Below, piece after piece: positions 39,206-64,000 of a stretch of 64,000 bases of DNA (its first letter is position 1; each line of letters opens with the position of its first letter). The notes beneath the pieces are model-generated. The model had not been told where the DNA came from. It worked only from the letters and a program-made list of their open reading frames with translations, and ran no database searches. The position numbers were made by a program, and so were the translations under genes. This DNA comes from a virus: the IMG/VR virus record IMGVR_UViG_3300032214_001486, positions 40,975 through 104,974 of that record; one strand, given 5' to 3'.

Positions 39206-39715
39206 TCATCGCACCCGCGAGGCCCGGCGTCTATACCCTTTGCGGGCCTTGTTTGCCTTGACGGTCGCAGTTTTAGGGCCCCCGGCCTTCGCTTGCACCG
39301 CTAATGCCGCCGCTTGGATTATTTCGTCCCCGTGCTCTTTTAACTGCTCGGCGACTAAGGAAGCAAGGGCCTTGGCCCGGTCGTCGTCAGACAGAAACAG
39401 CCGCGCAGCCGGGTTGAGGGTCGAGAGCTTGCGTAAAATCTCAATCTGCCTTTCCGGGGTCGCTGCTACGAATTCATCCACATGCCCCTGTACTTTCTTG
39501 ATTACTGTGGGCAGAACAAGGGGGAGAATTGCACGCGCCGCTGCGACTAAGGCAGGATGGTTGGCACGAACCGGGGGAAGGGGGGAGCCCACCACGATCA
39601 CATCAAGACCAGGGCGTTTAAGGGCGGCGGCGTCTAACAAGGCATCGGCCTTGTTTTTGTACGGGCCGACGTTCCCGTAAGCGTTCCCATTTTTTCTGAT
39701 CTCGATGCGATACAT
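39206..39715 (-). CDS. Small protein with basic C-terminus
   Basis: 169 residues. The first 45 residues (MYRIEIRKNGNAYGNVGPYK, ADALLDAAALKRPGLDVIVV) form a small alpha/beta unit. A helical middle is followed by a strongly basic tail (ATVKANKARKGYRRRASRVR). Probably DNA-associated in the particle, by analogy with its neighbours. No family is recognised. Confidence 0.6.
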   Translation of the reverse strand: MYRIEIRKNGNAYGNVGPYKNKADALLDAAALKRPGLDVIVVGSPLPPVRANHPALVAAARAILPLVLPTVIKKVQGHVDEFVAATPERQIEILRKLSTLNPAARLFLSDDDRAKALASLVAEQLKEHGDEIIQAAALAVQAKAGGPKTATVKANKARKGYRRRASRVR

Positions 39716-39744
39716 GGTGGGCTCCCAAGGTGCGACGGCTTACT

Positions 39745-40917
39745 TTACTTCCGGGCGCGGAAGCTGATTTTGCGACCATCGCGGGTACGGAAGCTCACGT
39801 TGCTGTTGCGACGGCTGTTCGCACGGAGCGCCATCGACTGCACGCGCTCACCCGCCGGCAGGACGTTATCGAGCAGGGCCCGGCTGGTGGCCGGCTTGCG
39901 GCTGCTGACGCGGTAGACCCACGCTTCCCAATTGCGACCGTTGACCGCCCCATCCACAATGAAGCCGTCCACGACTTCACCCAGACCGGCGTTCTTGAAT
40001 TCGGCAAGGCTTTCATCACCATCGTCGATCATGTCCAACGCCATTTTCTGACTAATCCGGTGATCCGCGACCTTCGCCGCAGTACGGAGCAGAGTCTTGG
40101 CGTCAATGGCCGCCGCGCGAGCGGTCGCGTAAGGCCCGAGATCGGCCCCGCGGTTGAGGTCGAATTCACCGTTTACCAGCACGGCGACGCGGTAGATACC
40201 CACGCCGGCCCGCCGACCGCCCTTCGCCTTGTGCTTCTCGCTGATTTTCACCCGAGTAGCAGTAGAGGGCACAATCCCCTTGCGCGAAGCACGGCCCTTG
40301 GGGGCCTTGCGCTCCGCAGGAAATGCCTCTTTCATTCCCGCGCGCACAATAGCCAGCCGTAGCTCCTCGGCCGTCAATTGCGAGTAGCTCGGGATCTTCA
40401 GACTCTTAGCCTCCTTCAGCAGACCTTTACGGTCCAGCCCGCTGATCTCCTCTTGAATTTCTTGGCGCGTTTGAGCCCGCTCACTCTTGGGGGCTTTGTC
40501 CGGCAGCGGGTAGGAAACATCCACCTCAGCCTTGACAACGGCCGCCAGCAGATCCTTCGCGCCCATCTTCGATAGGCCGGTCAGGCCCAGATCTTTTGCA
40601 TCTGTGCGAAGGATATTTAGCTTTTCTTCCCCCTTGTACTTAGCGTAAGCAGCACGGACTTCCGCCCGATACTGCTTGCGCTGCTCCTTGATTTCACTCA
40701 AAGTAAAACCGCCGGAGACAGCCTGAGCGGCGGGCTTCGAGGCGGCAGGCTTCGGAGCCGGGGCGGGGGCGGGGGCGGGCGCCGCGACCGGGGCCTTGGG
40801 GGCCTTGGGGGCAGCGGAGGCGGCAGCGGCTTGAGCCTTTGAGGGGCGGTCGCGCTTCTTTTTTTCGCCGGCCTTAGCCTCGGTTTTGGTGTCGGTGCTG
40901 TTTCGGAAAACCAACAT
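39745..40917 (-). CDS. Basic protein with SAP/Rho-N-like repeats
   Basis: 390 residues. MLVFRNSTDTK is followed by a Lys/Ala/Pro-rich tract. Two SAP or Rho-N-like helical units occur (LRTDAKDLGLTGLSKMGAKD near residue 105, LLKEAKSLKIPSYSQLTAEE near 170), which in known proteins bind nucleic acid. A C-terminal alpha/beta domain (GIYRVAVLVNGEFDLNRGAD) and a basic end with RANSRRNSNVSF follow. Likely a packaged DNA-binding protein. Confidence 0.65.
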   Translation of the reverse strand: MLVFRNSTDTKTEAKAGEKKKRDRPSKAQAAAASAAPKAPKAPVAAPAPAPAPAPKPAASKPAAQAVSGGFTLSEIKEQRKQYRAEVRAAYAKYKGEEKLNILRTDAKDLGLTGLSKMGAKDLLAAVVKAEVDVSYPLPDKAPKSERAQTRQEIQEEISGLDRKGLLKEAKSLKIPSYSQLTAEELRLAIVRAGMKEAFPAERKAPKGRASRKGIVPSTATRVKISEKHKAKGGRRAGVGIYRVAVLVNGEFDLNRGADLGPYATARAAAIDAKTLLRTAAKVADHRISQKMALDMIDDGDESLAEFKNAGLGEVVDGFIVDGAVNGRNWEAWVYRVSSRKPATSRALLDNVLPAGERVQSMALRANSRRNSNVSFRTRDGRKISFRARK

Positions 40918-40949
40918 TACAGTCTCCTGTCGGTGCGGGGGTGTGGGGG

Positions 40950-41333
40950 TTACTGCGAAACCATCAGAGCCAATTCGACGGTCACCGCATTTCCGGCGGG
41001 TGCTGTGACGGCGAGCCGGATAAACTTGCTCGGCACGACCGCCACAGGAATTACGGTTGGAACCCCCGGTGGAAGTACAGTAGCAGATACCTCTAAGGGG
41101 ATCAAGGTCTGAACCGCGTTGGCGTCAGAAATTGAGGCTTGAACCGAAACGGTCGCCCCCGCAGCCCCCGCCGTCTGACTCGCATAGACCAGAAGGCGCG
41201 GGGCGCCTCGGTTTTGGAGATAGGTGAAGAACGTGGTAGCCCCCGCATTGATCACGCGCGCTTCCCAATACTGAGAAAGCTGCGTGGCTGCGACGACTAT
41301 AGCGCCCGTGGCGGTTGCGTTTACATGCGACAT
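40950..41333 (-). CDS. Beta-rich virion protein, 127 aa
   Basis: Ala/Val/Thr-rich chain with regular beta strands (ARVINAGATTFFTYLQNRGA, FIRLAVTAPAGNAVTVELAL) and a VLPPGVPTVIP loop. It resembles in style the 117-aa protein at 4610. It leads into the capsid-candidate cluster and is likely a capsid or vertex protein. Structural role is inferred. Confidence 0.65.
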   Translation of the reverse strand: MSHVNATATGAIVVAATQLSQYWEARVINAGATTFFTYLQNRGAPRLLVYASQTAGAAGATVSVQASISDANAVQTLIPLEVSATVLPPGVPTVIPVAVVPSKFIRLAVTAPAGNAVTVELALMVSQ

Positions 41334-42031: not shown

Positions 42032-42727
42032 TTATTGACCGACGGTGTAGTTGCTGGGCGCGCGAACCTCGACACAATGCAGAGAAATGTCGATCCGCAG
42101 AGAGGCGAGCAGCGGCGTGATCCCAAGCTGGACGGACGCGCCCGGCTGAATGACATAGCCCGTGCCGCCGACTTCGCCGGGGTTAAAGCCGTCACCGATA
42201 CAGGTTGTCGCCAACCGCGGGCCGGTCATCAGCTTGTCGCCTGTCGAATACTCGATGCGGAACAGGTACGTTCCGTTGGCTTGCACGCCCAGCGGGAAAG
42301 CGTTGCCGACCCCCGTATTGAACGCACCGCCGTTCATGGCGATAAGGTAACAGGGAATGTCAAAGTTGACAATTCGAATAGCCTCCTGCCCAACCGTATA
42401 GTCCGGGTCACCCGACGACAAAGTAGCGCCGTAGAACCGGGTCTGTGTGCCGATATTGCCGGAAGTAGGCAGATACGGGGCGGTCGGGAACACCGGGACA
42501 CGAACAGCGCGAGGGGTCTGCGGCTTTTGCGCGGCCTGCTGCGTCACCTGCAAGAGCGCCTGCAATTGCTGGCCCTGGGCCGCAACCTGCTGGGCTTGAA
42601 TATGTAGCTGGGCCTGTAGGGCTGCGATGTAATTACCGACCGCACCGCTATTCCCGTAGGGGTCAGCCCCGGCAACCAGCGCGCCCATGCCGGGCATTTG
42701 CGTAACCGCGGATCGAAAGTCAGACAT
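42032..42727 (-). CDS. Capsid-candidate protein with N-terminal Gln-rich helix, 231 aa
   Basis: After MSDFRSAVTQMPGMGALVAG comes a Gln/Ala helix (IQAQQVAAQGQQLQALLQVT) that could trimerise or reach the membrane, then a beta domain from about residue 80 (EAIRIVNFDIPCYLIAMNGG, GTYLFRIEYSTGDKLMTGPR, LLASLRIDISLHCVEVR). A -10-like TATACT lies at about 42770 on the minus strand. Likely a capsid or minor capsid protein. Confidence 0.65.
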   Translation of the reverse strand: MSDFRSAVTQMPGMGALVAGADPYGNSGAVGNYIAALQAQLHIQAQQVAAQGQQLQALLQVTQQAAQKPQTPRAVRVPVFPTAPYLPTSGNIGTQTRFYGATLSSGDPDYTVGQEAIRIVNFDIPCYLIAMNGGAFNTGVGNAFPLGVQANGTYLFRIEYSTGDKLMTGPRLATTCIGDGFNPGEVGGTGYVIQPGASVQLGITPLLASLRIDISLHCVEVRAPSNYTVGQ

Positions 42728-42954: not shown

Positions 42955-43647
42955 TCAGCCGATCTCGATCACGTTCTTGTAATAGCCCAGGAGAGCGACC
43001 TTGATCGCCAGGGCGAAGTTCGCGCCTACGGCCGGGGCGCGGCTACCAAAGCGGAGGATGGTCGAGAAGGTCGTGGTGGCCGGGAGGGCGACCGCGTGCT
43101 TCCGGTACATCCAAACGCTACCAGCACCGTTGTTCATCGCGCCGCTGTTCGCGCCGGCCGCGTTCTGCGACACGGAACCAAACGCGCCGCCACCAGCGCC
43201 GATCATGTGGATCGGGCTAATGTCAACGGTGGTCTGGGTGAAGTCCCAGCTCAGTACGCCGTTGTTGAGCACGTTCTGGAGGTTGCCGATCTTCTCGGGG
43301 GTGTCCAGGGGAGCCGCGAGGGAGCTATCGAGGCCCGTGCCGCAGTAGACGTGGCACGAAATGCCGAATACGTCGAACGCGACACCGGCCGGGATACGAC
43401 CGCCTTCCTTCAGAGAGGTTTCGGCGATTGTCAAGGCTTGGCCGAAGCCTTGCCCCTGCTGCCCGAGCGGGGTCGCAAACAGACGGTTGGTGCTGTTGGC
43501 GAGCGCCGCGGTCGCCGCAAAGCCCTGGGTACTCCAAATACTTTGCTCGCCGTAGCGGAAAAGCTGGGTGGGTTGGCGGAACGGAACCGGGGGGATCGAA
43601 ATGTCGGGCGGGGCCACGAGGGCCATGCCGGGAGTGCCGTAGGACAT
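42955..43647 (-). CDS. Probable major capsid protein, 230 aa
   Basis: ATG 43647 with TTGGAG upstream. The chain is beta-rich with typical jelly-roll spacing: RIPAGVAFDVFGISCHVYCG, VLSWDFTQTTVDISPIHMIG, HAVALPATTTFSTILRFGSR and ALAIKVALLGYYKNVIEIG. It is a transcription unit of its own with a terminator, as expected for an abundant protein. It lacks the HK97-fold features of tailed-phage capsids. Naming it major capsid is inference from composition, position and isolation. Confidence 0.6.
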   Translation of the reverse strand: MSYGTPGMALVAPPDISIPPVPFRQPTQLFRYGEQSIWSTQGFAATAALANSTNRLFATPLGQQGQGFGQALTIAETSLKEGGRIPAGVAFDVFGISCHVYCGTGLDSSLAAPLDTPEKIGNLQNVLNNGVLSWDFTQTTVDISPIHMIGAGGGAFGSVSQNAAGANSGAMNNGAGSVWMYRKHAVALPATTTFSTILRFGSRAPAVGANFALAIKVALLGYYKNVIEIG

Positions 43648-43718: not shown

Positions 43719-45131
43719 TCAGAACGCCGAGCCCGCAAAGAGGGTAGCACCAAGCTCCCCGCTGCTGAGGGCCAAGCCGTTCATATCGAGCGCCAAACCG
43801 GCGGTTTCACCCGCGGTCGCGGCAGAGGGGGTAACAACGGAGGCCGGTACAGTGGTCTGCGCGCCGGGGTTGGTCCCCGCCGAAGCAGCCGCCGCGGCGG
43901 TCTGCTGCTCAACCGTGGCGATAGCCTGGGCCTTGATTTGCTCCAAGAGAGCGACGCGCTTCTCGGGGGAGAGCGCCGCGATCTTCGCAAACCGTTCCCA
44001 GCCGACCAGACAGATCAACCAACCGAAACGGTGACCGGGGCGGCCCGCGAGCGAGCTAATACCCTGACCGTTATAGTTGATCGCCTGCGTCGGAGCGTCC
44101 CCGAAGGTGCGGTGCCAAGCGTGCTGACCCGAAAGGGCAGCTTGGCCCTCCTGTACGGAGAGATCGGCGGGGGCGTAGTAGGCATCGGCAAGGCTGGCTC
44201 CGCTGTAATCTACAGCGGAGCCCTTACCGAAAGGGACGACATCATAGGCCATCCCGTCGCCAAAGCCGGCAGTATCGGTGAGGGCAAGGCCCGACATATC
44301 GGTGAGAGCGAGGCCCGACATATCAGTGAGGGCGAGGCCATCAAGGTCGTCGTCGTCACCCGACAGATCATCGTCGTCGTCACCGTCAAGGTCGAGATCG
44401 CCAAGATCGCCGGCCTTGTCGGACAGGAAGCGGTAAATGTCGAGCGCGCCGCCTACAAGCAGAGCGCCGACCGCAACCTGATTACGAAGCTCTTTGGAGC
44501 CGACCGGGACAAAATTCAGGACAGTGGCGACAGCGGCGCCCTGTACGGTGAACTTGACCGGCGAAATGGCGCGGAGGGCCGACTTAACAGCCGGGACCGC
44601 GCTCAGACCGCGCATCAGGCCGTAGTGGACAGCGCCCACCGCGACACCGACGAGGATCGGAGAAATGTACCCCGCGACAGTGTTACCGACGACCGGGATC
44701 TTGCGGGCCAAGCCCTCGACCGGAGCGGTAAACTGGTTGCTGAACGCGCCAAAAGCGTTCCGGCGTACAACCTTCTTACCCCGGCGGCGGTTGCCGTGGA
44801 GGTTCATCAGAAGGGTGTTCCGGCGCATACGGCGCATACCGTTCCGGTGCATACCGCGCAGCCCATTCCGGCGGCCGTTGCCGTGAAGGTTCATCAGCAG
44901 GGTGTTCCGGCGCACACCGCGGCGGGCGTTGCGGCGACCGTTGCCGTGAAGGTTCATCAGCAGCGTGTTCCGGCGGTGGGAAGTGTTCCGCCGACGAGCA
45001 GCCCCCTTCCGCTTGCGGTTGGTACGCAGCTTTAACCCAGCGAGAGCGCGAGCAGCGCCCCGCTTCGGGTTAGACTTGGATACGAACAACGCGCCGCTGA
45101 GCGGTGCGCCGTTACGGAACATGAGGGGCAT
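43719..45131 (-). CDS. Arg-rich core/membrane protein with triple peptide repeat
   Basis: 470 residues from ATG 45131 (MPLMFRNGAPLSGALF). Residues about 25-125 are protamine-like, with three copies of RRNTLLMNLHGN. A hydrophobic region (SPILVGVAVGAVHYGLMRGL, AAVATVLNFVPVGSKELRNQ, VAVGALLVGGALDIYRFL) suggests membrane contact. Then come an Asp-rich tract and three tandem SGLALTDM units, and a C-terminal domain with GLALDMNGLALSS. The basic start could bind packaged DNA and the hydrophobic part a virion membrane. Large plus-strand frames across this gene are shadows. Confidence 0.7.
   Translation of the reverse strand: MPLMFRNGAPLSGALFVSKSNPKRGAARALAGLKLRTNRKRKGAARRRNTSHRRNTLLMNLHGNGRRNARRGVRRNTLLMNLHGNGRRNGLRGMHRNGMRRMRRNTLLMNLHGNRRRGKKVVRRNAFGAFSNQFTAPVEGLARKIPVVGNTVAGYISPILVGVAVGAVHYGLMRGLSAVPAVKSALRAISPVKFTVQGAAVATVLNFVPVGSKELRNQVAVGALLVGGALDIYRFLSDKAGDLGDLDLDGDDDDDLSGDDDDLDGLALTDMSGLALTDMSGLALTDTAGFGDGMAYDVVPFGKGSAVDYSGASLADAYYAPADLSVQEGQAALSGQHAWHRTFGDAPTQAINYNGQGISSLAGRPGHRFGWLICLVGWERFAKIAALSPEKRVALLEQIKAQAIATVEQQTAAAAASAGTNPGAQTTVPASVVTPSAATAGETAGLALDMNGLALSSGELGATLFAGSAF
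44791..44975 (-). repeat. Three 35-base repeats coding RRNTLLMNLHGN
   Basis: Copies at 44791-44825, 44878-44912 and 44941-44975 differ at only a few positions. They encode the same dodecapeptide in one frame, so the repeats are under coding selection or recently duplicated. Confidence 0.8.
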
Positions 45132-45175
45132 GAGGTAACTCCTTTTTTGGAGGTCCAGAGGGGCATGGATGATCT

Positions 45176-45204: not shown

Positions 45205-45220
45205 GTACAACAACACCGGA

Positions 45221-46258: not shown

Positions 46259-47038
46259 TTAGACTCCCTTGAAAGCCAGCAGGACCAGACCAAGAACGGC
46301 GACGGTGCCGACCCCACCATACACCATCAACCGCTGTTTACGGGCACGCGCTCGCCGCGCTTTCACTCGCTGGTTTTTGCGTTTCTTCTTTTTTTCTTCC
46401 TCGGAAGCGCCCGGTGTGAGGGCGTCCTTGGTCGCGGCCTCCTCTGCGCTGGGGTCCAGCTTGTACTTTTGCTGGTCAGCGACCATTTGCGGTAAGCCGG
46501 TGCCCCCCTTGGGCCGCTCACCAAAGTAGACCGACAACGCTCGCAATTGAGGGTCAGACACAATCTGAGGGCCGCTGACGGCTTGAACAGCAGCCCACCC
46601 TTGACCCATGATCGAAACGATAGCCCCTATGTCCTTTGAATTGATTTTCAGAGAGTCAACGCGGCCCAAGGTAGCCTTCGCCGCGGAGGCAAGGCCGGGA
46701 TTTTTGAGATACCGGGCGGCCAACGCCATGAGATAGGCGGATTTAACGTAGGCTTGCGCCATATCCGTAGGCGCCTTCTGGACCCGGTTCGCAGCAGGCC
46801 CCATGAAACCGATGATGGTGTTGAGCCAAGCCTGATTTTCAGCCAAGCCGATCTGCTCTAAGGCTTCGTCGGGCTTGACCGAAGTGAAGTCGTATTTTTC
46901 GTTTAAGTGCTCTGCGTACTTCCCGGCTGCCGCGCCAATGACGTAGCGCCCCCCATAATAGGTGCCGACCGCCAGCGGAATGAGAGGCACCCCATACCCG
47001 CCGTCAGAGTGGGCAGAGGGCCGAAAAAAGGTCGTCAT
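46259..47038 (-). CDS. Virion-type membrane protein, 259 aa
   Basis: ATG 47038 overlaps the upstream stop (ATGA). It starts MTTFFRPSAHSDGGYGVPLI with a moderately hydrophobic segment (LAVGTYYGGRYVIGAAAGK), has a helical core, a strongly basic stretch (KKKKRKNQRVKARRARARKQ) and a C-terminal membrane segment (LMVYGGVGTVAVLGLVLLAF). The same C-anchor plan recurs in the next seven genes. Likely sits in a virion membrane with its basic face toward the DNA. Confidence 0.65.
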   Translation of the reverse strand: MTTFFRPSAHSDGGYGVPLIPLAVGTYYGGRYVIGAAAGKYAEHLNEKYDFTSVKPDEALEQIGLAENQAWLNTIIGFMGPAANRVQKAPTDMAQAYVKSAYLMALAARYLKNPGLASAAKATLGRVDSLKINSKDIGAIVSIMGQGWAAVQAVSGPQIVSDPQLRALSVYFGERPKGGTGLPQMVADQQKYKLDPSAEEAATKDALTPGASEEEKKKKRKNQRVKARRARARKQRLMVYGGVGTVAVLGLVLLAFKGV

Positions 47039-47997
47039 GGTTGGGTTTCCTTCCGGCCTTTGCCGTGCGGGGCTTTGTTTGCCTGGGAGTATAGCACAGC
47101 CCCCACACCCAAAACACCCAAACTCAGCCAACCCCACACAGGTACACCGCCGACCTTGCGGGCCATTTGGCCTTGAAAAGACGCTGCTTCTACAGCTTTG
47201 GCCGTATCGACCTGCGCCTGTTGTGCCTGTTGTGCCTGTTCTTGTGCCTGCCGCCGCGCTTCTGCCCGCCGTTCCTTTCGTTCCTCCCGCCGTTCGTCAT
47301 AAGACGCTTCCAACGCTTCGATAAGGGCGATTTTGGCCTCTAACCGCGTCCGTTGCTTTTTGAGCCGGTTCGGGCCGCGCATGATACCAAAAGAGAGGAC
47401 TTGAAGCGTGCGGCGAGCACCGGGGCGGCGCTTCCATTTGCGCTGACGCTCCTTTACTTTGCTCAGGCGTTTCTTGTATACGCCCAACTTTTTGAGCCGC
47501 CAATCTTTCGGTTTGCGCGCTAATTTGATGACAAAGCCCGGTACTTCCTCGGGGTCGGGCAGCCCGAGCTTCTTTGCCCAGGCGATTGCCCGCTTCTTAT
47601 TGACCTTGCGCTGGCGAATACCTTTGACCAGGGCGATTGTGCCCGCGGTCGCCGCGAGCACCCCGCCGACAATCCAACCCACAACCGGGACGGTCGCAGA
47701 CGCCCCCGCCGCTGTGAGAAGGCCCGTGGTGGCCCCGCCGGCAGCTACAGCCCCACCAGCCCCCGCAGCGGCAGCCGCGCCACCCGCGGCAGCAGCCCCG
47801 CCGGCAGCCGCAACGCCGCCCGCAGCCGCGCCGCCCCCGCCGGCAAGCAAGGCGCCGATTTTCAGCCCTTGAACGCCCATGCTGGCCGTATTGGCTACGC
47901 CCTCGGCGGCCATCGCGGCATTTTCGCCGCCAGAGCTAACACCGCCCCGGCCCCAATCCGGGCTGGGCTCGCTGTACGGGGATGGAAGAAAAGCCAT
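47035..47997 (-). CDS. Virion-type membrane protein, 320 aa
   Basis: Starts MAFLPSPYSEPSPDWG, similar to MRFNPSPYSFPVAEG in the 127-aa gene at 48792. A Gly/Ala-rich tract is followed by a membrane segment (VPVVGWIVGGVLAATAGTIA), a basic domain (KKRLSKVKERQRKWKRRPGA), a coiled coil, and a second membrane segment (VWGWLSLGVLGVGAVLYS) before a basic tail. The Gly/Ala tract is low complexity at the DNA level (about 47690-47860). Confidence 0.65.
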   Translation of the reverse strand: MAFLPSPYSEPSPDWGRGGVSSGGENAAMAAEGVANTASMGVQGLKIGALLAGGGGAAAGGVAAAGGAAAAGGAAAAAGAGGAVAAGGATTGLLTAAGASATVPVVGWIVGGVLAATAGTIALVKGIRQRKVNKKRAIAWAKKLGLPDPEEVPGFVIKLARKPKDWRLKKLGVYKKRLSKVKERQRKWKRRPGARRTLQVLSFGIMRGPNRLKKQRTRLEAKIALIEALEASYDERREERKERRAEARRQAQEQAQQAQQAQVDTAKAVEAASFQGQMARKVGGVPVWGWLSLGVLGVGAVLYSQANKAPHGKGRKETQP

Positions 47998-48000
47998 AGC

Positions 48001-48792
48001 TCACCCGGTTGCGCGCTGTCGGCGCACGAAGCGGGCTGTTAGACCCAATAAGAGCAAAACGCCGCCCACAACGGTTACTTGGCCGAGTGTCCGCCATGTG
48101 CGCCGGGCGCTCTCTTGTTCCCGCTGTAGCTCGACGCGGCGCTCGGCCGCTTTTAGCTTGGCTTTCAGGACACGAAGCCGGGCCTGTAACGGGCCCCGCA
48201 GAAGGGGCGGGGCCCGCTTGATCATTTTTTGGGTATTCTTGATCCGTGCCCGCAGTACCTCTTGCTGCTGCGTCGGGTCAAGGACTTGTTCTAAGCCCGT
48301 CTTGACCAACGGCGCATACTCTTGGATCATGGCTTCCGTAGAAGCCGAGGACGATGCAGCCTTATCCCCGGCGGGCGCCGCTTCCCCTTCCCCGTAGTCA
48401 GACAGAACAGACGCCCGGAAAGCTCCCCCGGCAGAGCCCGCAAGGTCTGTGGGCGCCCCCGGCTGATCTTCTTCGATCTTGTACTGCAAGTAATTACGGA
48501 CCTTGGCTACATCGTGAGCCGCGGTCGCAATTTTGTAGTGGTTCCATTGGGGGATAACGTCACCGTCCTGTAACAGACGGCGCAGGACGCCCGCATCCCG
48601 CTGGATCTGCGCGAGCGCCGACTTTGCCATTTTGCCTTGATACGGCATAGGGTAGTCGAAATTCCGCACAACCGGGATGGGGGTCGGCATGGTGCCCAGG
48701 CGGGTAACGCCGCTCGGGCCGGCGAAACCGGCGAGGCCGGGGTTAGAAAACACACCGGACAGGTGGGCAAGGTGGCGAGAGCGGTAAGACAT
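48001..48792 (-). CDS. Virion-type membrane protein, 263 aa
   Basis: MSYRSRHLAHLSGVFSNPGL begins a chain with FDYPMPYQGKMAKSALAQIQ and HYKIATAAHDVAKVRNYLQY, then a basic coiled coil and one C-terminal membrane segment (LGQVTVVGGVLLLLGLTARF) ending RRQRATG. One-base overlap with the gene upstream (48792). No enzyme motif. Confidence 0.65.
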   Translation of the reverse strand: MSYRSRHLAHLSGVFSNPGLAGFAGPSGVTRLGTMPTPIPVVRNFDYPMPYQGKMAKSALAQIQRDAGVLRRLLQDGDVIPQWNHYKIATAAHDVAKVRNYLQYKIEEDQPGAPTDLAGSAGGAFRASVLSDYGEGEAAPAGDKAASSSASTEAMIQEYAPLVKTGLEQVLDPTQQQEVLRARIKNTQKMIKRAPPLLRGPLQARLRVLKAKLKAAERRVELQREQESARRTWRTLGQVTVVGGVLLLLGLTARFVRRQRATG

Positions 48793-49175
48793 TACTGTTT
48801 TCCCTTACGCTTTTTGAGTACAACGTAGCCGCCGATCAAAGCCAACCCCAGCACCCCACCGATAATGAGGGGCCAGGGGGTAGCCGCGGGGGGCGCCGCC
48901 GGGGCTGCGACCGCGGGGGCTTGGGCCGGACGGGCCCGCCGACGCCCCCGGCGACGACGGCGACGGCGCAGGGATGCAATCTGCGTGCCCGCGCCGACAG
49001 CCGACGACGTGAGCGTTGACAATGCCCCGGCCCGTTCCTCCGTAAGCCACGGTGTTTTCGCTGTTTTAGTAGCAGCGGCGGCAGCGGCAACGGCCGGCGC
49101 AGCTTCCCCTAAAGCCAGAAAGCCAAAGTGACCTTCCGCCACGGGGAAGCTGTACGGGCTCGGGTTAAAGCGCAT
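48792..49175 (-). CDS. Small virion-type membrane protein, 127 aa
   Basis: Starts MRFNPSPYSFPVAEGHFGFL, sharing the F.PSPYS.P pattern with the 320-aa protein. An Arg-rich tract (SLRRRRRRRGRRRARPAQAP) precedes Pro/Ala linker and the membrane segment PLIIGGVLGLALIGGYVVLK, then KKRKGKQ. The layout is that of a small membrane protein with a DNA- or RNA-binding arm. Overlaps neighbours by one base on each side. Confidence 0.65.
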   Translation of the reverse strand: MRFNPSPYSFPVAEGHFGFLALGEAAPAVAAAAAATKTAKTPWLTEERAGALSTLTSSAVGAGTQIASLRRRRRRRGRRRARPAQAPAVAAPAAPPAATPWPLIIGGVLGLALIGGYVVLKKRKGKQ

Positions 49176-54758: not shown

Positions 54759-55502
54759 CTACTCGGCGGCCGGATCAGCATCGTCGGGCAGCCGGCACCA
54801 ATTGATATAGGGCGTGGTGTACTCCAAGTGATCTGCGAATTCTCGGTAGGCGAGGGCCGAGGCCACCTGCACGATATTTTCAGTCACTTGGCGGGCGCGC
54901 TTTTTGCCCCAATGCGGCACCAAAGCGAAGATCGCCTGGGTTAAGCCAGGGAAAGCGCGAATGTAGATCCAGGGAGCCTGCCCACCAAAATTGAGCATAT
55001 CCATCAAAGCCTTTGCCCGGTCAGGCTGGGGCTCCCCCTCAATGCCAAAATTGGTGTTCCATGTGTGGAGCAGCCCGTACCACGCATTGAGCCCTTCTTG
55101 GTAGAGCGGGTGTCGGTGCGTTGTCGGTTCCCCGATATTGCGAACGGACTCCGGGTTGAAAGGCGGCTCCCCGTCCCAGGACTTCGGTTCATTCCACACG
55201 TCCAAATCCGGCTTGATAGGCGGGGCCCCGGAAAGGGCCCTGGTCAGCGTAGGATAAGGATCGGGGGCGGGGTGTTTATCGGCGTGGCTGCCCGCTGCGT
55301 GTGCCTTGGGTGCGCCTTGGGTGCTGTAGGGTGCGCCTTGGGTGCTGTAGGGGTTGGGTGCATCAAGGCCGGCAGAAGCGGGGGGAGCCCCCCTTTCCTC
55401 GCGGGGAGCGCCAAAATTGGGGGGCGGTTCCCACCGCATTAGGGACTCCATGATCAGCACTAACTCTGCGATATTGTCGGTTTCAACGATAAAGAGCCTC
55501 AT
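54759..55502 (-). CDS. Unknown 247-aa protein
   Basis: ATG 55502 overlaps the upstream stop (ATGA). A Pro-rich region with a tandem PYSTQGA repeat (about residues 51-65) is followed by a helical domain (YQEGLNAWYGLLHTWNTNFG, FPGLTQAIFALVPHWGKKRA, NIVQVASALAYREFADHLEY). No family is recognised; the coupling suggests it partners the 905-aa coiled-coil protein. Confidence 0.65.
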   Translation of the reverse strand: MRLFIVETDNIAELVLIMESLMRWEPPPNFGAPREERGAPPASAGLDAPNPYSTQGAPYSTQGAPKAHAAGSHADKHPAPDPYPTLTRALSGAPPIKPDLDVWNEPKSWDGEPPFNPESVRNIGEPTTHRHPLYQEGLNAWYGLLHTWNTNFGIEGEPQPDRAKALMDMLNFGGQAPWIYIRAFPGLTQAIFALVPHWGKKRARQVTENIVQVASALAYREFADHLEYTTPYINWCRLPDDADPAAE

Positions 55503-58216
55503 TCCTCACCTTCCTCGGCGTCGTCGCCGTCGTCGTCGTCGTCATCATCATCATCGTCGTCACCGTCGTCATCGTCCTCGTCGTCAAAGACAATGCCCCA
55601 ATTCATATCGGGAACCAACGGATGCTCTTGGAGCAATTCTACCACGTCGAGGGCCGTGTCCTCGGTGGCCCCTGCGCGCAGTAAGCCCTGATAGACGGTA
55701 TCCTCTTGGAGTAGGACGTAAATACGCTTCTCCGCAGTCAGGGCGCGAATGATCAAGGCTTCCCAAGTGTCTTGGGGCTGCGACTGACACTGTTGTACCA
55801 ACGCGACAAGGGCCGCCTGCGCGGCGTTGCGATCCGAGGGGGACATGCGCTGGGGGCCGGCATTTTGGGCCGGAGCCTGCGCTGGGGCTTGGGCTGGTGC
55901 CTGAGCCTGGGCCGGGATGGACGGGGCTTGAACGGCCTGGGCCGGCTGTACCTGCTGAGCCGGCTGGGCCTGCTGGACCTGCTGAGCCTGGGGAGCAGCC
56001 TGCTGAACGGGTCGGGCTTGCGGAGCGGGGGAAACACCGACAAACGGGGCTTGAACGGGCCTTTGTTGCATCGGCGGCGGCTGCATGGGCGGCTGCTGCA
56101 TCGGCCGGGGCTGCTGCGGGGGCAGAACCCGCGGCATAGTCGGGTTCTGAACGCCCCCGACCATCCCCGGTGCCGGGAGGGCCATGCGGGTTTGCGGGGC
56201 GGGAAGGGCCCGTTGGGGTTGCGTACCCCCCTGGGCACGGCGCTGAGCGGCACCCGAGATCATCTTGGCCTTGGCTACCTCCCCCACGGTCATCATCACC
56301 TTGCCGGCAAGGTCCGCCCAAATTGGGGTATTGTCAGGCTCGGGGGGCGGCGGCGGGTTGAGGAACCGATCTACCAATTGCTTAGGCTCGACGCCCACCG
56401 CGGCCAGTAGGGCGGTCGCCTTTGCAATAGCTTCCTCGACAGAAGTACCCTTGACCGATTGCGCCGCTTGAACGGCCAATTGTAGCTGCATCTGCTGTAG
56501 CTGAGCCATCGCCTGCTCATGCTCCCGCTTCGCTACCTTTTCGTCCTCCAGCCGCTTTAGCTCTAACTCATGGGCGCGCTGGTCGGCCTTCTCTTTCCGC
56601 TCACGCTCGGCCTGCTCGATTTTCTCCTTTCGCTCCCGATCTTCCCGCTCTATCCGCTCCTTTCGCTCTCGCTCCTCTCGATCCAAACGCTCCCGCCGGT
56701 CCCGCTCCTCGCGCTCTGTGCGGTTACGTTCTTCTCGTTCACGCTGCTCAGCCTCAAAACGGCGGGTACGTTCCTCCCGCTCCATTTGCCGTTCCTGCTG
56801 AAATTCTTGGGCGCGGCGCAAAAGCTCGGCCTGAATACTCTCCGCTTGGGATTTCATCTGCGCGACTTGCAGCTCAATTCCCTGCTGCTGTAGCTTCGTC
56901 TGCGCCTCTAAGCGCATACGCTCCGCTTCAATCGAAGTCTTAGCCTCAGCCCGCTGCTTCTCAGCGTCAATCCGCATCTGTTCCAGACGGGCCTTAACTT
57001 CCGCCTCGACTACGGCTTGCCTGCGGTCATGCTCCGCCTGCTGGCGCTGGGCCGCCGCGGCATCGTCGGCCAATTGCTTCGCCAGCTTGCGATCAAACTC
57101 AGCCTGCTCACGGGCAAGCCGGGCGTTGATCGCGGCTTCCTCACGGGCAAGCCGGGCCTGCTCCCGCTCGATTTCAGACTGGAACCGCTTTTCCGTTAGC
57201 TCTTTGTCCAGCCGGGCCCGTTCCGCCTCTTTGTCCGCAGCGATCCGCGCAGACTGTACTTCACGGTCAGCGGCCTGCCGGGAAGCCTCTAAAGTCTGCT
57301 GGAAGAACGCGGCGCTATTGTCCGATAGCTGCTGGCTCTGCGCCCGCATTTGTTCCAAGGCCAGCCGTGCGCGTTCCTGCTCAGCCTGCATCGACTTTTC
57401 AGCGAGCGACTGAATTGCATTGGTGGTAACCGCGTTATTCTGCGCCTGTAGCTCGACCTCGCGGGAAGCGTTGAGGCGCGAACGCTCCTGCTCGGCTTGG
57501 GTCATCTGAAAAGTACGATCCATCGCACTCTGCATCAGGCCGAAAACGCTGTCAGGCACGGGGGGCGGGGCCGCCGGAGGCTGCGGGTAGCCGGGGTAGC
57601 CGGGGTAGCCAAAACCCCCACCGGGTACACCCAACATGCGAAGCTGGCGCTGCCGTTCTTCTTCTTCTTCGCGGGCTCGGAGGGCCTGCAATACCACATG
57701 GTCGGCGCCGATGGTCTTTTCAGTCTCGTGGCCGATCTCTTTGCCATCCCGGCCCAGCGGCCAAATCTTGAATATGGCCCGATCATCACCAGGGCGAGGC
57801 ATTGAGTTACGGAATTTCTTGACGAAATCTTCCTCCGTAGCCTCAGCCGGAATGGTGCCAAGGGACACCCAGGCGCCGTTATCGAGCTTATGTACCTGCA
57901 AACCCAGGACAGCCGGGTAGTTACCCCCCTGGACAAACAGCCGGGGAGAGGACGACCGGCCCGCAAGGGTAGAAATGCGGCTGTCGATGGGCGACTCGGT
58001 AGATACACCGCTAATCTCTACCGGGGCGTTGAGATTTTCTAACGGGGTGTCAAAACCTTCACCGTCGCCCCCTTCCTCAGAATTCTCGTCGTCCTCCTCC
58101 TCAAAAGCAGAGCGAAACCGGGGGGCCGGCGTCGGGCGCTCTGGCCTGGGTCGCCCCCTTGCAGGCCGAGTATCCTCAAAGGCGTTGTCGAGATCATCCC
58201 TACCGCGGATCGGCAT
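55499..58216 (-). CDS. 905-aa coiled-coil protein with acidic tail
   Basis: Start at ATG 58216 (MPIRGRDDLDNAFEDTRPAR), a few bases after GGGGGG; the short upstream extension is less likely. A folded domain at about residues 90-190 (RLFVQGGNYPAVLGLQVHKL, FKIWPLGRDGKEIGHETEK) precedes roughly 400 residues of Glu/Gln/Arg coiled coil, then Pro/Gln-rich sequence (QPRPMQQPPMQPPPMQQRP) and an extremely acidic end. It is the longest gene in the virion block and first of its operon. It may be a scaffold or a long structural spacer. It lacks the membrane helices of a tape-measure protein. Confidence 0.7.
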   Translation of the reverse strand: MPIRGRDDLDNAFEDTRPARGRPRPERPTPAPRFRSAFEEEDDENSEEGGDGEGFDTPLENLNAPVEISGVSTESPIDSRISTLAGRSSSPRLFVQGGNYPAVLGLQVHKLDNGAWVSLGTIPAEATEEDFVKKFRNSMPRPGDDRAIFKIWPLGRDGKEIGHETEKTIGADHVVLQALRAREEEEERQRQLRMLGVPGGGFGYPGYPGYPQPPAAPPPVPDSVFGLMQSAMDRTFQMTQAEQERSRLNASREVELQAQNNAVTTNAIQSLAEKSMQAEQERARLALEQMRAQSQQLSDNSAAFFQQTLEASRQAADREVQSARIAADKEAERARLDKELTEKRFQSEIEREQARLAREEAAINARLAREQAEFDRKLAKQLADDAAAAQRQQAEHDRRQAVVEAEVKARLEQMRIDAEKQRAEAKTSIEAERMRLEAQTKLQQQGIELQVAQMKSQAESIQAELLRRAQEFQQERQMEREERTRRFEAEQREREERNRTEREERDRRERLDREERERKERIEREDRERKEKIEQAERERKEKADQRAHELELKRLEDEKVAKREHEQAMAQLQQMQLQLAVQAAQSVKGTSVEEAIAKATALLAAVGVEPKQLVDRFLNPPPPPEPDNTPIWADLAGKVMMTVGEVAKAKMISGAAQRRAQGGTQPQRALPAPQTRMALPAPGMVGGVQNPTMPRVLPPQQPRPMQQPPMQPPPMQQRPVQAPFVGVSPAPQARPVQQAAPQAQQVQQAQPAQQVQPAQAVQAPSIPAQAQAPAQAPAQAPAQNAGPQRMSPSDRNAAQAALVALVQQCQSQPQDTWEALIIRALTAEKRIYVLLQEDTVYQGLLRAGATEDTALDVVELLQEHPLVPDMNWGIVFDDEDDDDGDDDDDDDDDDDGDDAEEGEE

Positions 58217-58269
58217 TTGTACCCCCCTTTTTGGCTTGTGAACAATGCCAATCCCACCCCTAACCGCCT

Positions 58270-58298
58270 TTGACAATAAGGCAAGAGTAGGTTACATT
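58270..58298 (+). promoter_or_regulatory. Consensus promoter TTGACA-17-TACATT
   Basis: TTGACA (58270-58275), 17-base spacer, TACATT (58293-58298), 18 bases before the ATG at 58317. A perfect -35 box. It lies in the divergent gap to the 905-aa gene, and its -35 contains TTGACAATA, half of the palindrome at 22181. Confidence 0.8.
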
Positions 58299-59339: not shown

Positions 59340-59374
59340 GCCCACACTTCCCCCCACCACCAATGAGGCAGACC

Positions 59375-59998
59375 ATGAGCGATCTCGGCTTTCCCACCAT
59401 CCCCGGCACGGAACCCGCATACAACGTCGATAATCTCCAATTCGACACTGACCCCGAGACTATGCGCCGGCAATACTACGCGCAGACTCTCGCCGCGCAG
59501 CAGCAGCAGCAGCCGCAAACCTTCATCCCGTCTGCCGCGGAAACACCGGGAACAGCCGTGGTGGCCCCTGCCCCCGTCTCTATCGAGGCGTCCGCAGACA
59601 CCGGGTATTATGGGGGTATGTACGACGACGATTATGGCGATCCCGGCGAAAGCAACGACTTCTATGACAGTGTGCAGCAGGGTAGTGTTCTCGTCGGGTT
59701 CGCCCTAATCGGGCAGGTTGCCGATCAATGGCTCAAAGAGCGCACCGGGGCCGCTGGCTACGGCCCGATTTTGGGCGCGGCTACCGGAAACGCCCTCAAC
59801 ACCGTCATCGCGGCGAGCGACGGCGGGGCCAAGGCCAGCGCGAAGGCGCTGGGCGGCGCCCTTCTGCCAATGCTGCCGCTGGTGGCCGCGGTGGGCCTAA
59901 AGAAAGAGATTAGCGGGGGTACTCGGATTGCCCTTCTCCTTAGTAGTGCGGGGCTGCTCGGCGCCTCCCTCTACATGAAAAAGCAGGGGAAGAAGTAA
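59375..59998 (+). CDS. Virion-type membrane protein, 207 aa
   Basis: ATG 59375 (MSDLGFPTIPGTEPAYNVDN) with GAGG upstream; an ATG 12 bases earlier is possible. A Gln/Pro/Ala-rich start and acidic patch (YYGGMYDDDYGDPGESND) precede hydrophobic segments (GSVLVGFALIGQVADQW, LGGALLPMLPLVAAVGL, IALLLSSAGLLGASLYM) and a KKQGKK tail. Two or three membrane passes. Same tail plan as the minus-strand virion proteins. Confidence 0.65.
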   Translation: MSDLGFPTIPGTEPAYNVDNLQFDTDPETMRRQYYAQTLAAQQQQQPQTFIPSAAETPGTAVVAPAPVSIEASADTGYYGGMYDDDYGDPGESNDFYDSVQQGSVLVGFALIGQVADQWLKERTGAAGYGPILGAATGNALNTVIAASDGGAKASAKALGGALLPMLPLVAAVGLKKEISGGTRIALLLSSAGLLGASLYMKKQGKK

Positions 59999-60000: not shown

Positions 60001-60690
60001 ATGGGAAAGGGGATTTTGGACGAAATCAAGGCGGACGCCGCTGAAAACTGGCTATCTCTCGCCGAGGTAGAAGCCGCAATCCCCGCCATGAAAGCCAAAG
60101 GTGTGTCGGCCGTTGCCCGCGGAGAACAGCGGTCAAAGGTGACAGGGGGCGGGTTTATCGGCGCATACCGGCTCGCGGAGGGCGACCCCGGCACAATGGC
60201 CGATCTACTCGCAACCGCTAATCAAAGCTGGGCAAAACGGCGCATGGACTTTGTTTCTCGCCATATGGCCCAGCTTATCAACCGGGGAGAAGCCCTGTAT
60301 GACGGCAAGGGCAACCCTAAAGGCCGACACTTAGCCCTGATCGCCTGGGCATACACCCCGGACTATGACGGGTTTAAGGCGTGGCTGCGCCGTTCTCGCG
60401 GCGGACTGACGCGGAACGGTAGCCCCTGGAACCCCTGGAAAAAGGTCAATCGACCCGGCTCCGAAGTACAGACCCTCCTATTTGACCGTGACAAGTGGAA
60501 GCTGGGGGAAGCGCGGGACTGGCTCAAAGGTCACGGGTTTAACGGGCTCGGTGTAGACGCTAAGCCTAACAATCTACGGTTCCGGCAGCGGGAACCCTCT
60601 GAATTCCACCCTAATACCTTCCGCACCATTCCGTTTGGCCCGGATAGCGGAATACAAGCCGTTGTCGGAATTCCCTATGAAAAAGCCTAA
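60001..60690 (+). CDS. Phage protein with VQTLLFD..KW domain
   Basis: 229 residues. After a helical N-terminal part (MAQLINRGEALYDGKGNPKG), residues about 155-225 (VQTLLFDRDKWKLGEARDWL, NLRFRQREPSEFHPNTFRTI) form a domain known from many phage proteins, where it is often linked to prohead or virion genes, function unresolved. A recognisable version ends the short SNF2 helicase at 22234. It overlaps the next gene by 14 bases. Confidence 0.75.
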   Translation: MGKGILDEIKADAAENWLSLAEVEAAIPAMKAKGVSAVARGEQRSKVTGGGFIGAYRLAEGDPGTMADLLATANQSWAKRRMDFVSRHMAQLINRGEALYDGKGNPKGRHLALIAWAYTPDYDGFKAWLRRSRGGLTRNGSPWNPWKKVNRPGSEVQTLLFDRDKWKLGEARDWLKGHGFNGLGVDAKPNNLRFRQREPSEFHPNTFRTIPFGPDSGIQAVVGIPYEKA

Positions 60691-61297: not shown

Positions 61298-61942
61298 ATG
61301 GCGACAGGCAAATCACAGAACGGCTGGCCCGCGTCGCCCAACGCCGCAAGTGTAGGGATTAGGCCCTTTTCGTTTGTGCTGCGGGGGGTTCCCCGTAAGC
61401 TGATGCTGGCAGAGTCCGTCGCACCTCAGCTTATTGAGATCATTCAATGGTGGGACCAGAACATCGAGCCCGTCACGCAGTTAGGTAGCTGGAATTACCG
61501 GGAGATCCGCGGTAAAGAGGGAACAGGGGTTCTATCTAACCATTCCAGCGGAACAGCGGTTGACATTAATTGGGATAAGCACCCGCTCGGGGCGGTGGGG
61601 ACCATTCCGGCGGACAAAGCAGCAGCGTTGCGGGCCAAGGTGTCGAGCCTCGGGCTGCGCTGGGGCGGCGACTACAAGCGCAGGAAAGACGAGCACCACG
61701 TTGAAGTCGCATACGGGCCCCTACAGCACACGGCGGTCGTGCGGGTCCAGCAGGCGCAGCAGGCGATCACGGGTGGAAAAAAAGCCGGTACTGCCGGGGC
61801 CCGGCGAGCCGCAAGACGGCTTTACAAGGAGAGGCGCGCTGTCTATACTGTTACTGCTATCGTATCTGCGATTTTTGTGGTAGGCTTAGGTGGTCTGCTA
61901 CTTCAACGCAAAAAGACAGCGCCGCCGGGAGGGCTGAAATGA
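61298..61942 (+). CDS. M15 (VanY-like) D-Ala-D-Ala peptidase with C-terminal membrane anchor
   Basis: 214 residues from ATG with GGAG upstream. The zinc site is complete: SNHSSGTAVDINWD (SxHxxGxAxD, about residues 80-92) and DEHHVEVAYG (about 131). The fold cleaves peptidoglycan stem peptides. After a basic linker comes YTVTAIVSAIFVVGLGGLLL, one membrane segment, and a short KK tail. Free phage endolysins lack such an anchor; this form fits an enzyme held in a virion membrane for entry, or in the host inner membrane. It overlaps the next gene (ATGA). Confidence 0.9.
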   Translation: MATGKSQNGWPASPNAASVGIRPFSFVLRGVPRKLMLAESVAPQLIEIIQWWDQNIEPVTQLGSWNYREIRGKEGTGVLSNHSSGTAVDINWDKHPLGAVGTIPADKAAALRAKVSSLGLRWGGDYKRRKDEHHVEVAYGPLQHTAVVRVQQAQQAITGGKKAGTAGARRAARRLYKERRAVYTVTAIVSAIFVVGLGGLLLQRKKTAPPGGLK

Positions 61943-62706
61943 ACGAGGACAATGTTTGCGAAGTTACCCTTGTACGGACTCCGCAAGGGGACTACACGCT
62001 GGCCGGTATTGACGACTACCTCAACGAAGTCGGGGATATGGGCGACGCCGCCAGCCGACGCAAGCGGCGGACAGAGCGGAAAAAGAAGCGGTACTCCAAA
62101 GCCAGCAAAAGCACCCGGAAGGCCGCGATTGCCGCCCGCGTAGCTACCCGGATGGCGATCCGAGCGGGCAAAGTGAAAAAGGGCCGGGTTAGCAAGGCCG
62201 CACGAAACGCCCGGCGGGCTGCCCGTAAGGGTTCGAGCGTGCTGGCGTCGGTTGTCGCCGGTCTAATGGCGGTCGGCCTATCCAAAAAGACCGCTACGGC
62301 CTACGCTAAGCGGGCGATTGCGCTGCTCAGCGGCAAAAAGAGCAAGAGCAAAGGCAAGAGCAAGGGTAAGAGCACCGCGAAGCCCACGGCGGACGAAAAG
62401 CTGGTCGCCGCTGCCACCAACGAGGAGAACGCCGCGGAAGCATCGGGTGAAACCGAGGAGGACGAAGCGGAGGACGAAGGGGAAGGCGAGGACGACCTTG
62501 AGGGTGAAGATGCAGAATTTGACGAGGAATATGACTCGGGCCCCGGCGGTACAGAAGTCGCGGGCTACGGTGCAATCCCCACAATTGATCGCGTCAAGCC
62601 TTTCATCCCCTGGATTGTGCTCGGGGTTGGCGCCCTGGCTATCTGGAAATTCAGCGCGTCCGATGCTCCGGCGGCCGACAAAGCCCCGGCCCGAAAGAAG
62701 CGGTGA
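61939..62706 (+). CDS. Basic/acidic virion-type membrane protein, 255 aa
   Basis: After MNEDNVCEVTLVRTPQGDYT the chain is very basic (SRRKRRTERKKKRYSKASKS, KSKSKGKSKGKSTAK), then strongly acidic (EEDEAEDEGEGEDDLEGEDA), then a membrane segment (VKPFIPWIVLGVGALAIWKF) and a Lys/Arg tail. The basic half could bind DNA. Coupled to the M15 peptidase. A hairpin (TCGAGGG/CCCTCGA, 62707-62728) follows without a T-run. Confidence 0.65.
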   Translation: MNEDNVCEVTLVRTPQGDYTLAGIDDYLNEVGDMGDAASRRKRRTERKKKRYSKASKSTRKAAIAARVATRMAIRAGKVKKGRVSKAARNARRAARKGSSVLASVVAGLMAVGLSKKTATAYAKRAIALLSGKKSKSKGKSKGKSTAKPTADEKLVAAATNEENAAEASGETEEDEAEDEGEGEDDLEGEDAEFDEEYDSGPGGTEVAGYGAIPTIDRVKPFIPWIVLGVGALAIWKFSASDAPAADKAPARKKR

Positions 62707-62714
62707 TCGAGGGG

Positions 62715-62744
62715 TAGACCTCCCTCGACCCCCTGTGGTACGAT
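62715..62744 (+). promoter_or_regulatory. Possible promoter TAGACC-18-TACGAT
   Basis: TAGACC (62715-62720), 18-base spacer, TACGAT (62739-62744) with an extended TG. It precedes the ATG at 62776 by about 32 bases. The -35 lies in the loop of a small hairpin. Confidence 0.45.
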
Positions 62745-62775
62745 CTGCCGACCCCCATTTCCCCTGGAGAAAACA

Positions 62776-64000
62776 ATGTCCCAAGCTATCCGGTTAGGTG
62801 CGCGACCCGTCGATGATCGGGTGAACGTAGAGCGGGCCTTAGAAGCCTTCAACCGTTTCATGTTCCTAAAGCGCATGGGCGCGCCGCAGTCGGTGACCCT
62901 GCCCGTCGCGCAGCAGGTTGTGCATTACCTGCAAATTGCGCGCCGCTATGTCAACGGCTACGCCCTGGTCAGCGCCTACAGCGGCCCGCACCGGCTGATC
63001 TGGTACAACTTTGTCCGCCGCGCTACCTTTCGCGCATTTAGCGGCGCGGAGTTAGGGGCTGCCGGCGAGCGCAAGAATATCTCGCAAGCCCTGGCCCTGT
63101 TCAGCCAATGGAAGGCTCTGCCGCGGGGAAGCGCGGAGCGCAAGGCGATTGCCCGTCAGATTGTGAGCAACCTGCGCGTTGCGATCAATCAGGACAACGT
63201 ACAGATCGACGAGATCATCAGCGCGTGGACAAACGGTTCTGCTCCGAAGGCATGGCGCGGCTTCGCCCGCCGGGCCCAGGATCGTTCGCGCCGCCAGCAG
63301 GGCCGGGGCCAATACAGCGGCCTGGAATTGTCGGGTCCGCCCGCGCTGAGCAAGCGCCCGAATATCGCGCAGGCTTTGTCTCTCTACAATCAGTGGAAAG
63401 CTCTGCCCAAGGGTAGCTCGGAGAAGCGGACGGTTGCCCGTCAGATTGTGAGCAACCTGCGCGTTGCCGTAAGCAAGGAACGAATTGGGTACGCCGATCT
63501 GGTCAGGGCTTGGCCCCTCGCTATTCCGGGCGGCCAGCCCCCGAAGTCGTGGGTAGGTTTCGCCCGCCGCGCGGCCACACGTTCGACCACGAAGGGCTCG
63601 TACAGCGGCATCGGCATCTACAACAACGCCGACCTACCCATGATGGCCGGGTCCGATCTTAGCCTCGACGGCTTAGGTGACCTCGGGGCCGGCGGTGCCC
63701 GCCTGCGGGCCGCCTCCGAAATGAAGGCCAAGATCGCGGCGTACAAGAAGGATATTTCTGTGTTTGAGGGCCTTCTGAAAGAGGAAGGCTTGGATGCAGA
63801 CGAGAAGGCCAAATACCAGGATAAGATCGACTTCCGCAAGGAACGGATCAAGAAGCTGGAGAAGGGCCTAAAGGAGAAGGCCGAGCGGAAGGCCGGTCGG
63901 CGCCGCTGGGCAAAGTCTGCCGCCGCGACCCTCAACCCCTACGGCTTTGCGGGCGATGATCTCGACGGCGACGATATGGGGTTTTTGGATGACCTCAGCG
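62776..64000 (+). CDS. Internally repeated protein, 3' partial at the window edge
   Basis: ATG 62776, 7 bases after TGGAG; the frame is open to base 64000 (408 codons visible). Two repeats of about 95 residues start near residues 100 and 195: KNISQALALFSQWKALPRGS and PNIAQALSLYNQWKALPKGS, each followed by ARQIVSNLRVA and later W.GFARRA. A helical, charged region (EMKAKIAAYKKDISVFEGLL) and a second basic stretch follow. Short acidic motifs (SDLSLDGLGDLG, DDLDGDDMGFLDDLS) resemble those of other virion proteins here. Probably a particle protein; function unknown. Confidence 0.75.
   Translation, partial: MSQAIRLGARPVDDRVNVERALEAFNRFMFLKRMGAPQSVTLPVAQQVVHYLQIARRYVNGYALVSAYSGPHRLIWYNFVRRATFRAFSGAELGAAGERKNISQALALFSQWKALPRGSAERKAIARQIVSNLRVAINQDNVQIDEIISAWTNGSAPKAWRGFARRAQDRSRRQQGRGQYSGLELSGPPALSKRPNIAQALSLYNQWKALPKGSSEKRTVARQIVSNLRVAVSKERIGYADLVRAWPLAIPGGQPPKSWVGFARRAATRSTTKGSYSGIGIYNNADLPMMAGSDLSLDGLGDLGAGGARLRAASEMKAKIAAYKKDISVFEGLLKEEGLDADEKAKYQDKIDFRKERIKKLEKGLKEKAERKAGRRRWAKSAAATLNPYGFAGDDLDGDDMGFLDDLS
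63149..63467 (+). repeat. Identical 34-base direct repeat inside the edge gene
   Basis: 63149-63182 and 63434-63467 are identical over 34 bases, beginning TTGCCCGTCAGATTGTGAGC and encoding ARQIVSNLRVA both times. The spacing of 285 bases equals one 95-residue protein repeat. Confidence 0.85.

Follow-up and report, generated by a model that had tools for sequence, protein, structure and literature searches.

A conserved block of candidate virion genes

We analysed the last 64 kb (bases 40,975-104,974) of the 104,974-base IMG/VR virus record IMGVR_UViG_3300032214_001486, hereafter the window (64,000 nucleotides), in whose numbering positions are given. Its right part, 39206-64000, contains a block of genes that probably encodes the particle of a tailless virus with an internal membrane. 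Within the block lie adjacent beta-rich proteins of 228, 231 and 230 amino acids (aa), pointed out in a sequence-only reading of the window and found here to be conserved in relatives (Table 1). The 230-aa protein, our candidate major capsid protein, is better conserved than any other in the block, with 51-60% identity in 4 other contigs.

Searched against 2.9 million IMG/VR contigs, this protein found a single relative, G001 (41,351 bases, 56% identity), and a profile scan added a second from IMG/VR, G397 (39,156 bases). Scanning 84,980 species genomes gave one relative, the contig L010, which is 6.9 kb long and comes from a Gemmatimonadota bin. When 395 Gemmatimonadota genomes were searched, the 16-kb contig L018 was added, also from a Gemmatimonadota bin; another 394 genomes drawn at class level, in part the same as that Gemmatimonadota set, yielded no new strong matches. 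These four contigs and this record are compared below as one lineage. Two other candidates were discarded: IMG/VR contig 3300033291_000001, a DNA-pattern match by chance, and G158, whose weak match (E 2e-4) within a 928-aa frame is probably also due to chance. There were zero matches when the 230-, 231-, 228- and 211-aa proteins were compared by tblastn with 50,697 phage records, or the capsid candidate with 72,556 plasmids. On these comparisons the lineage appears unmatched in the named-phage collections searched, and no description of it was found in the literature searched, which mostly did not include preprints and subscription literature. The two bins are a weak lead only towards a Gemmatimonadota host.

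Gene order is kept in all five contigs, as far as each reaches: the 211-aa protein is followed by a basic membrane protein and then by one or two copies of the capsid candidate, which is duplicated in tandem in L010 and L018. Where the contig continues, homologues of the 231-, 228- and 127-aa proteins come next, and then usually an anchored wall-active enzyme. In G001 the capsid candidate is separated from the 231-aa homologue by two inserted genes, one for a DNA-modification-type protein and one for an HNH-like repeat protein (L006:10727-13282).

Sequence searches of Pfam, PHROGs, PDB and phage genomes with the capsid candidate gave no match, and PDB profile searches with alignments of this protein and of the 231-aa protein returned noise only. 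AlphaFold2 models of the candidate are dominated by beta structure, with a predicted local distance difference test (pLDDT) score of 50 from four sequences; a second run, with seven sequences, was worse, at 44. Structural comparison of the candidate had been proposed with the sequence-only reading. The models are of low confidence, and their Foldseek matches are mainly to jelly-roll proteins, among them capsid proteins of enteroviruses, PRD1 P5, the FLiP penton, plant (nanovirus) and CRESS virus coat proteins and C1q/TNF-like heads; no HK97 capsid was among the 50 matches listed per search. We infer from these models a shell of jelly-roll type.

Tail-anchored proteins and wall-active enzymes

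About a dozen proteins of the block had been described as ending in one hydrophobic segment and a basic tail. Taking as anchored those proteins whose last hydrophobic segment lies no more than 60 aa from the C-terminus and whose tail is net positive, we observed 10 among the 29 genes at 39206-64000, against 2 among the 95 genes in the remainder of the record (Fisher p = 6e-6); shuffled block proteins gave a mean of 0.7 and a maximum of 4. One of the ten calls (40950-41333) is probably a beta strand, and one protein just under the threshold (50936-52396) was added by eye. The count of anchored proteins in the block is thus 9-10, close to the number first described. In control genomes anchors were found in 7/30 proteins of PRD1, 4/20 of PM2 and 7/36 of P23-77, and in none of 20 lambda structural genes, so that the rate in the block is like that of the first three and unlike that of lambda. 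Such an excess is compatible with an internal lipid membrane carrying membrane proteins.

Two of the anchored proteins had been taken for wall-active enzymes, and family searches bear this out (Transglut_core and Peptidase_M15_4), with the reservation that the transglutaminase-like fold is not wall-specific. The homologue of the former in G001 conserves C109 and H155; the latter has a 56% identical homologue in L018. Across the lineage the anchored wall enzymes have unrelated folds: M15, transglutaminase-like, M23 and SLT/lysozyme. The last slot of the conserved order holds an M15 enzyme in L018, an M23 enzyme in G001 and one of lysozyme/SLT type in G397; the position is fixed and its occupant has been replaced by non-homologous enzymes. 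The M15 enzyme of this record is located elsewhere, at 61298-61942.

Searches for tail, terminase and packaging genes

Scans with Pfam and PHROGs covered about 120 genes from this record, 50 from G397, and genes from G001 and L018; for large gene sets the results comprise the best 25 families, and weaker matches may lie below them. Among the matches listed, neither the window nor the remaining 41 kb of the record nor two relatives showed a gene for a terminase, a portal, an HK97 capsid or a tail, which agrees with, and extends, the earlier remark that such genes are missing from the window. Neither phmmer nor six-frame searches found a terminase or portal. With the terminase, portal, capsid, tube and sheath proteins of lambda and Synechococcus phage S-T4 as queries, no homologue was found, the one exception being a virion protein of S-T4 to which the 525-aa product of 10208-11785 is related. 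We considered this 525-aa protein as a double-jelly-roll capsid protein and rejected it, as T4-like cyanophages share it and neither G001 nor G397 has it. Also rejected were a portal match (phrog_15528), which is a NUDIX protein (29400-29846) and matches 14 of 14 control genomes, and tape-measure, baseplate-hub and minor-head PHROG matches in G001, which go back to M23 and SLT domains in proteins of 186 and 205 aa. None of the features that would have spoken for a tailed phage (Caudoviricetes), namely terminase, portal, tape measure and HK97 fold, was detected in these searches.

The search for an FtsK/HerA-type packaging ATPase, suggested alongside the sequence-only reading, also came back empty. 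A six-frame search with the terminase ATPase, FtsK and HerA families found nothing in the three virus records (this one, G001 and G397), and PF01935, PF01580 and reference packaging ATPases had no match in the lineage, whose records are incomplete; in a control, the packaging ATPases of PRD1, PM2 and SH1 detect each other, and that of P23-77 is not detected. Every plausible GK[ST] P-loop belongs to an SNF2 helicase, a Sak4-like or RecF-like protein, or thymidine kinase.

Link to the replication genes

The first 41 kb of the record (read as L002-L004) form a replication arm. Its polymerase has a 46% identical counterpart in G397, which also carries homologues of the SNF2, nuclease, Sak4 and RecF-like genes; because this 39-kb contig holds the virion block and these replication genes together, the two arms belong together, and it is unlikely that the 105-kb record is chimeric. 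Since the gene at its right end is open and comparison of both ends gave no convincing terminal repeats, the record is incomplete.

Other genes of the record

Table 1. Features of the record discussed in the text (positions in the window unless stated)
Feature	Position	Strand	Evidence
Candidate major capsid protein, 230 aa, predicted all-beta, jelly-roll-like	42955..43647	-	Conservation, AlphaFold2, Foldseek
Beta-rich virion protein, 231 aa (second or minor capsid protein?)	42032..42727	-	Adjoins capsid candidate in G001, L018, G397, 37-47% identity
Beta-rich virion protein, 228 aa	41343..42029	-	Same place in relatives, 27-34% identity
Small beta-rich protein, 127 aa (spike, cement or vertex protein?)	40950..41333	-	Same place in relatives, 23-34% identity
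Basic-repeat protein (RRNTLLMNLHGNGRRN), hydrophobic centre	43719..45134	-	Homologues directly upstream of capsid candidate, 4/4 relatives
Conserved virion-block protein, 211 aa	45621..46256	-	32-46% identity, 4/4 relatives
Tail-anchored protein (C-terminal membrane segment and basic tail)	46259..47137	-	Anchor criterion
Tail-anchored protein	47035..47997	-	Anchor criterion
Tail-anchored protein	48001..48792	-	Anchor criterion; homologue in G001
Tail-anchored protein	48792..49175	-	Anchor criterion
Tail-anchored protein	49175..50596	-	Anchor criterion
Small conserved block protein, 85 aa	50604..50861	-	44% identity in G001
Tail-anchored protein, segment just under threshold	50936..52396	-	C-terminal end PIFFLLIAGAAAGYIYTKKKGKDGKDKK
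Conserved block protein, 121 aa	52495..52860	-	48% identity in G001
Transglutaminase-like enzyme, C-terminal anchor	52887..53774	-	Transglut_core PF01841 2.2e-10
Long coiled-coil, Glu/Arg-rich virion-arm protein	55499..58276	-	Homologue in G001 (E 6e-19)
Tail-anchored protein	59363..59998	+	Anchor criterion
Protein with C-terminal domain common to virion-arm SNF2 translocases	60001..60690	+	
M15 peptidase (endolysin-like), C-terminal anchor	61298..61942	+	Peptidase_M15_4 PF13539 1.6e-11, phrog_1512
Tail-anchored, basic protein	61939..62706	+	Anchor criterion
SNF2-family DNA translocase, virion arm	22234..24393	-	SNF2/Helicase_C among Pfam hits; orthologues in G397, G001
Second SNF2-family translocase, 1501 aa	29843..34348	-	
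Integrase	2946-3779		
Replication arm: SNF2 helicase, PD-(D/E)XK nuclease, Sak4-like protein	First 41 kb of record		
Replication arm: family-A DNA polymerase with uracil-glycosylase-like domain	First 41 kb of record		
Replication arm: methyltransferases, thymidine kinase, RecF/SMC-like ATPase	First 41 kb of record		

The protein directly upstream of the capsid candidate could possibly connect membrane and DNA or membrane and shell. Its basic repeats (RRNTLLMNLHGNGRRN; noted over 43719-45251) take the forms NPRRR and RKRRNGVAVRMNG in the relatives, and short NP[RK][RK] motifs recur across proteins of the lineage.

The virion arms of this record and of G001 each carry two SNF2-family translocases, and G397 has one inside its virion block. 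SNF2 translocases and separate virion-arm proteins have in common a domain at the C-terminus, some 70 aa long (pattern P.TF.TI......AV.G); it occurs at the C-terminus of 22234-24393, in 60001-60690, in G397 13789-15429 and in G001 8758-11004 and 34311-35477. One may speculate that the 22234-24393 translocase is the packaging motor. An injected anti-restriction role for the SNF2 proteins, of the 'polyvalent' protein type treated in PMC5512222, would be an equally good guess.

Many large, otherwise unrelated proteins of window 12529-39158 and of G001 share a weak N-terminal domain of about 45 aa (pattern P.L..WL..N), among them the starts of 12529-13260, 16522-17106, 17103-19565, 28326-29243 and 37069-37566. 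Hidden Markov models of this domain seeded in one genome rank the proteins of the other first (E 1e-4 to 2e-3; best control 0.019), and it is possibly a packaging or injection tag. Also in the window are a 900-aa protein (34395-37097) with an apparent GHKL-type ATPase domain and a C-terminal HELAH metalloprotease-like motif and, in the enzyme arm, two beta-solenoid (hexapeptide/YdcK-like) proteins (14277-15392 and 20665-21255).

Comparison with known tailless viruses

Among the closest parallels are Thermus phage P23-77 and the Sphaerolipoviridae/Simuloviridae (kingdom Helvetiavirae), which share with the particle proposed for this lineage the lack of a tail, an internal membrane, lytic enzymes in the virion and adjacent single-jelly-roll capsid proteins (theirs about 170-290 aa); the C-terminal anchor rate of P23-77 was given above. 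They encode a packaging ATPase, which was not found in the lineage, and neither this ATPase nor their capsid proteins show sequence or profile similarity to the lineage: hhalign of lineage alignments A13-A16 with VP16, VP17, VP4 and VP7 gave probabilities below 1%. The model of the capsid candidate is jelly-roll-like, at low confidence. Their genomes measure 16-19 kb (Simuloviridae) and about 30 kb (Sphaerolipoviridae) (PMC12642351, PMC12643093).

PRD1 and PM2 (Bamfordvirae, Tectiliviricetes) are likewise tailless, with an internal membrane, many small membrane proteins and a membrane-linked lytic enzyme, but have a double-jelly-roll capsid protein of 270-400 aa, a P9-type ATPase, genomes of 10-15 kb and no detectable homology to the lineage. 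Our capsid candidate showed no similarity to PRD1 P3, PM2 P2 or the FLiP major capsid protein and, at 230 aa, is too short for two barrels. More broadly, no similarity was detectable between the candidate capsid proteins of the lineage and those of P23-77, SH1, PRD1, PM2 and FLiP. Prokaryotic double-jelly-roll viruses have genomes of about 7-18 kb, and among them the Odin group has no virus-encoded packaging ATPase (PMC5894146). In this last respect the Odin group resembles the lineage, where none was found; it and the FLiP-like phages differ in being small double-jelly-roll viruses, FLiP having single-stranded DNA of 9 kb. Huracanviridae, a candidate family of ANME-1 archaea, are metagenomic tailless viruses with single-jelly-roll capsid proteins (PMC9894754); set beside the lineage by description, they differ in being archaeal and in having a capsid related to Helvetiavirae.

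Discussion

Four things were observed directly: a gene block kept between relatives, its anchors, a lack of detectable genes for tail or packaging, and a physical link to replication genes. They are best explained by a tailless, internal-membrane double-stranded DNA (dsDNA) bacterial virus with a jelly-roll-type shell and an unusually large genome, belonging to a new lineage; we consider this likely. The sequence-only reading had proposed a large tailless virus with an internal membrane, either a larger member of a known group or a new lineage. The block is now backed by a conserved lineage of at least five contigs. Features that would positively mark the named families (an FtsK/HerA ATPase, similarity to their capsid proteins, a confident jelly-roll model) did not emerge; the lineage is therefore taken as a new one of that general kind, and membership in the P23-77, PRD1 or PM2 families is not demonstrated. 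In the particle so proposed, jelly-roll proteins would form the shell, the 231-, 228- and 127-aa neighbours would be second or minor shell and vertex proteins, and the anchored proteins would stud a host-derived lipid membrane beneath. Wall-active domains on some anchors may open the cell wall at entry, on contact of the membrane with the cell. Replication would be virus-encoded, by the family-A polymerase, SNF2 helicases and the Sak4-like recombinase. We infer both the position of the membrane inside the particle and the entry role of the wall enzymes.

Several observations weigh against this explanation. The lineage is read from metagenomic sequence alone, with no particle or lipid seen, and all its records are incomplete. 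The capsid models are of low confidence; the best Foldseek E to a solved structure is 1.6e-3 (none passes 0.001) and template modelling (TM) scores are about 0.1-0.3, and the Foldseek result therefore indicates topology only. Most known tailless dsDNA viruses encode a packaging ATPase, and in this lineage none was found. Finally, the 525-aa protein at 10208-11785 is homologous to a T4-like cyanophage virion structural protein (phrog_1645, 3e-39; 30% identity), and the homologous gene in S-T4 sits between the terminase subunit genes; G001 and G397 do not have it.

The virus could be tailless and membrane-containing and yet have a different main shell protein: 42955-43647 might be a spike or decoration protein, or not a single jelly-roll, for instance half of a double-jelly-roll-like heterodimer of two beta proteins. 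Foldseek also matched vertex proteins and the trimeric heads of C1q/TNF-like proteins, in which the jelly-roll is likewise present, and three other beta-rich proteins lie alongside; both would fit such an arrangement, which we nevertheless regard as rather unlikely, given that the gene is the most conserved of the block and duplicated in tandem, as expected of the main shell protein. That the record comes from a tailed phage whose genes for capsid, terminase and tail fall outside the recovered sequence or have diverged beyond detection is quite improbable. The record is incomplete, and its PolA, SNF2, Sak4 and 525-aa proteins do resemble tailed-phage genes, but none of the tailed-phage hallmarks sought turned up in any of three genomes of the lineage (105, 41 and 39 kb), all P-loop proteins are otherwise assigned, and the lambda structural genes show no cluster of tail-anchored proteins. 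The integrase and the presence of two relatives in bacterial genome bins might instead point to something other than a virus, a plasmid-like or integrative element that encodes a suite of cell-surface proteins. This is very improbable: IMG/VR classes three of the records as viruses, they carry phage-type replication genes and multiple muralytic enzymes, no conjugation or plasmid-maintenance genes are among the family matches listed, and the capsid candidate was unmatched in the plasmid collection. A bolder version of the tailless membrane virus, which we hold to be unlikely, is a new high-rank group of jelly-roll membrane phages, unrelated by sequence to known capsid lineages and packaging 40-105+ kb with neither an FtsK/HerA nor a terminase motor, possibly by means of the virion-arm SNF2 translocases.

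The tailless membrane viruses of prokaryotes compared here have genomes of about 7-30 kb, several-fold below this record. A lineage of at least 105 kb would demonstrate that the tailless-membrane virion plan can hold a large genome in bacteria too, as it does in the giant viruses of eukaryotes. If the packaging ATPase is truly absent, the way in which DNA gets into the shell can be put directly to the test. The lineage is nearly invisible to current databases, and the five contigs provide a first set of queries for it.

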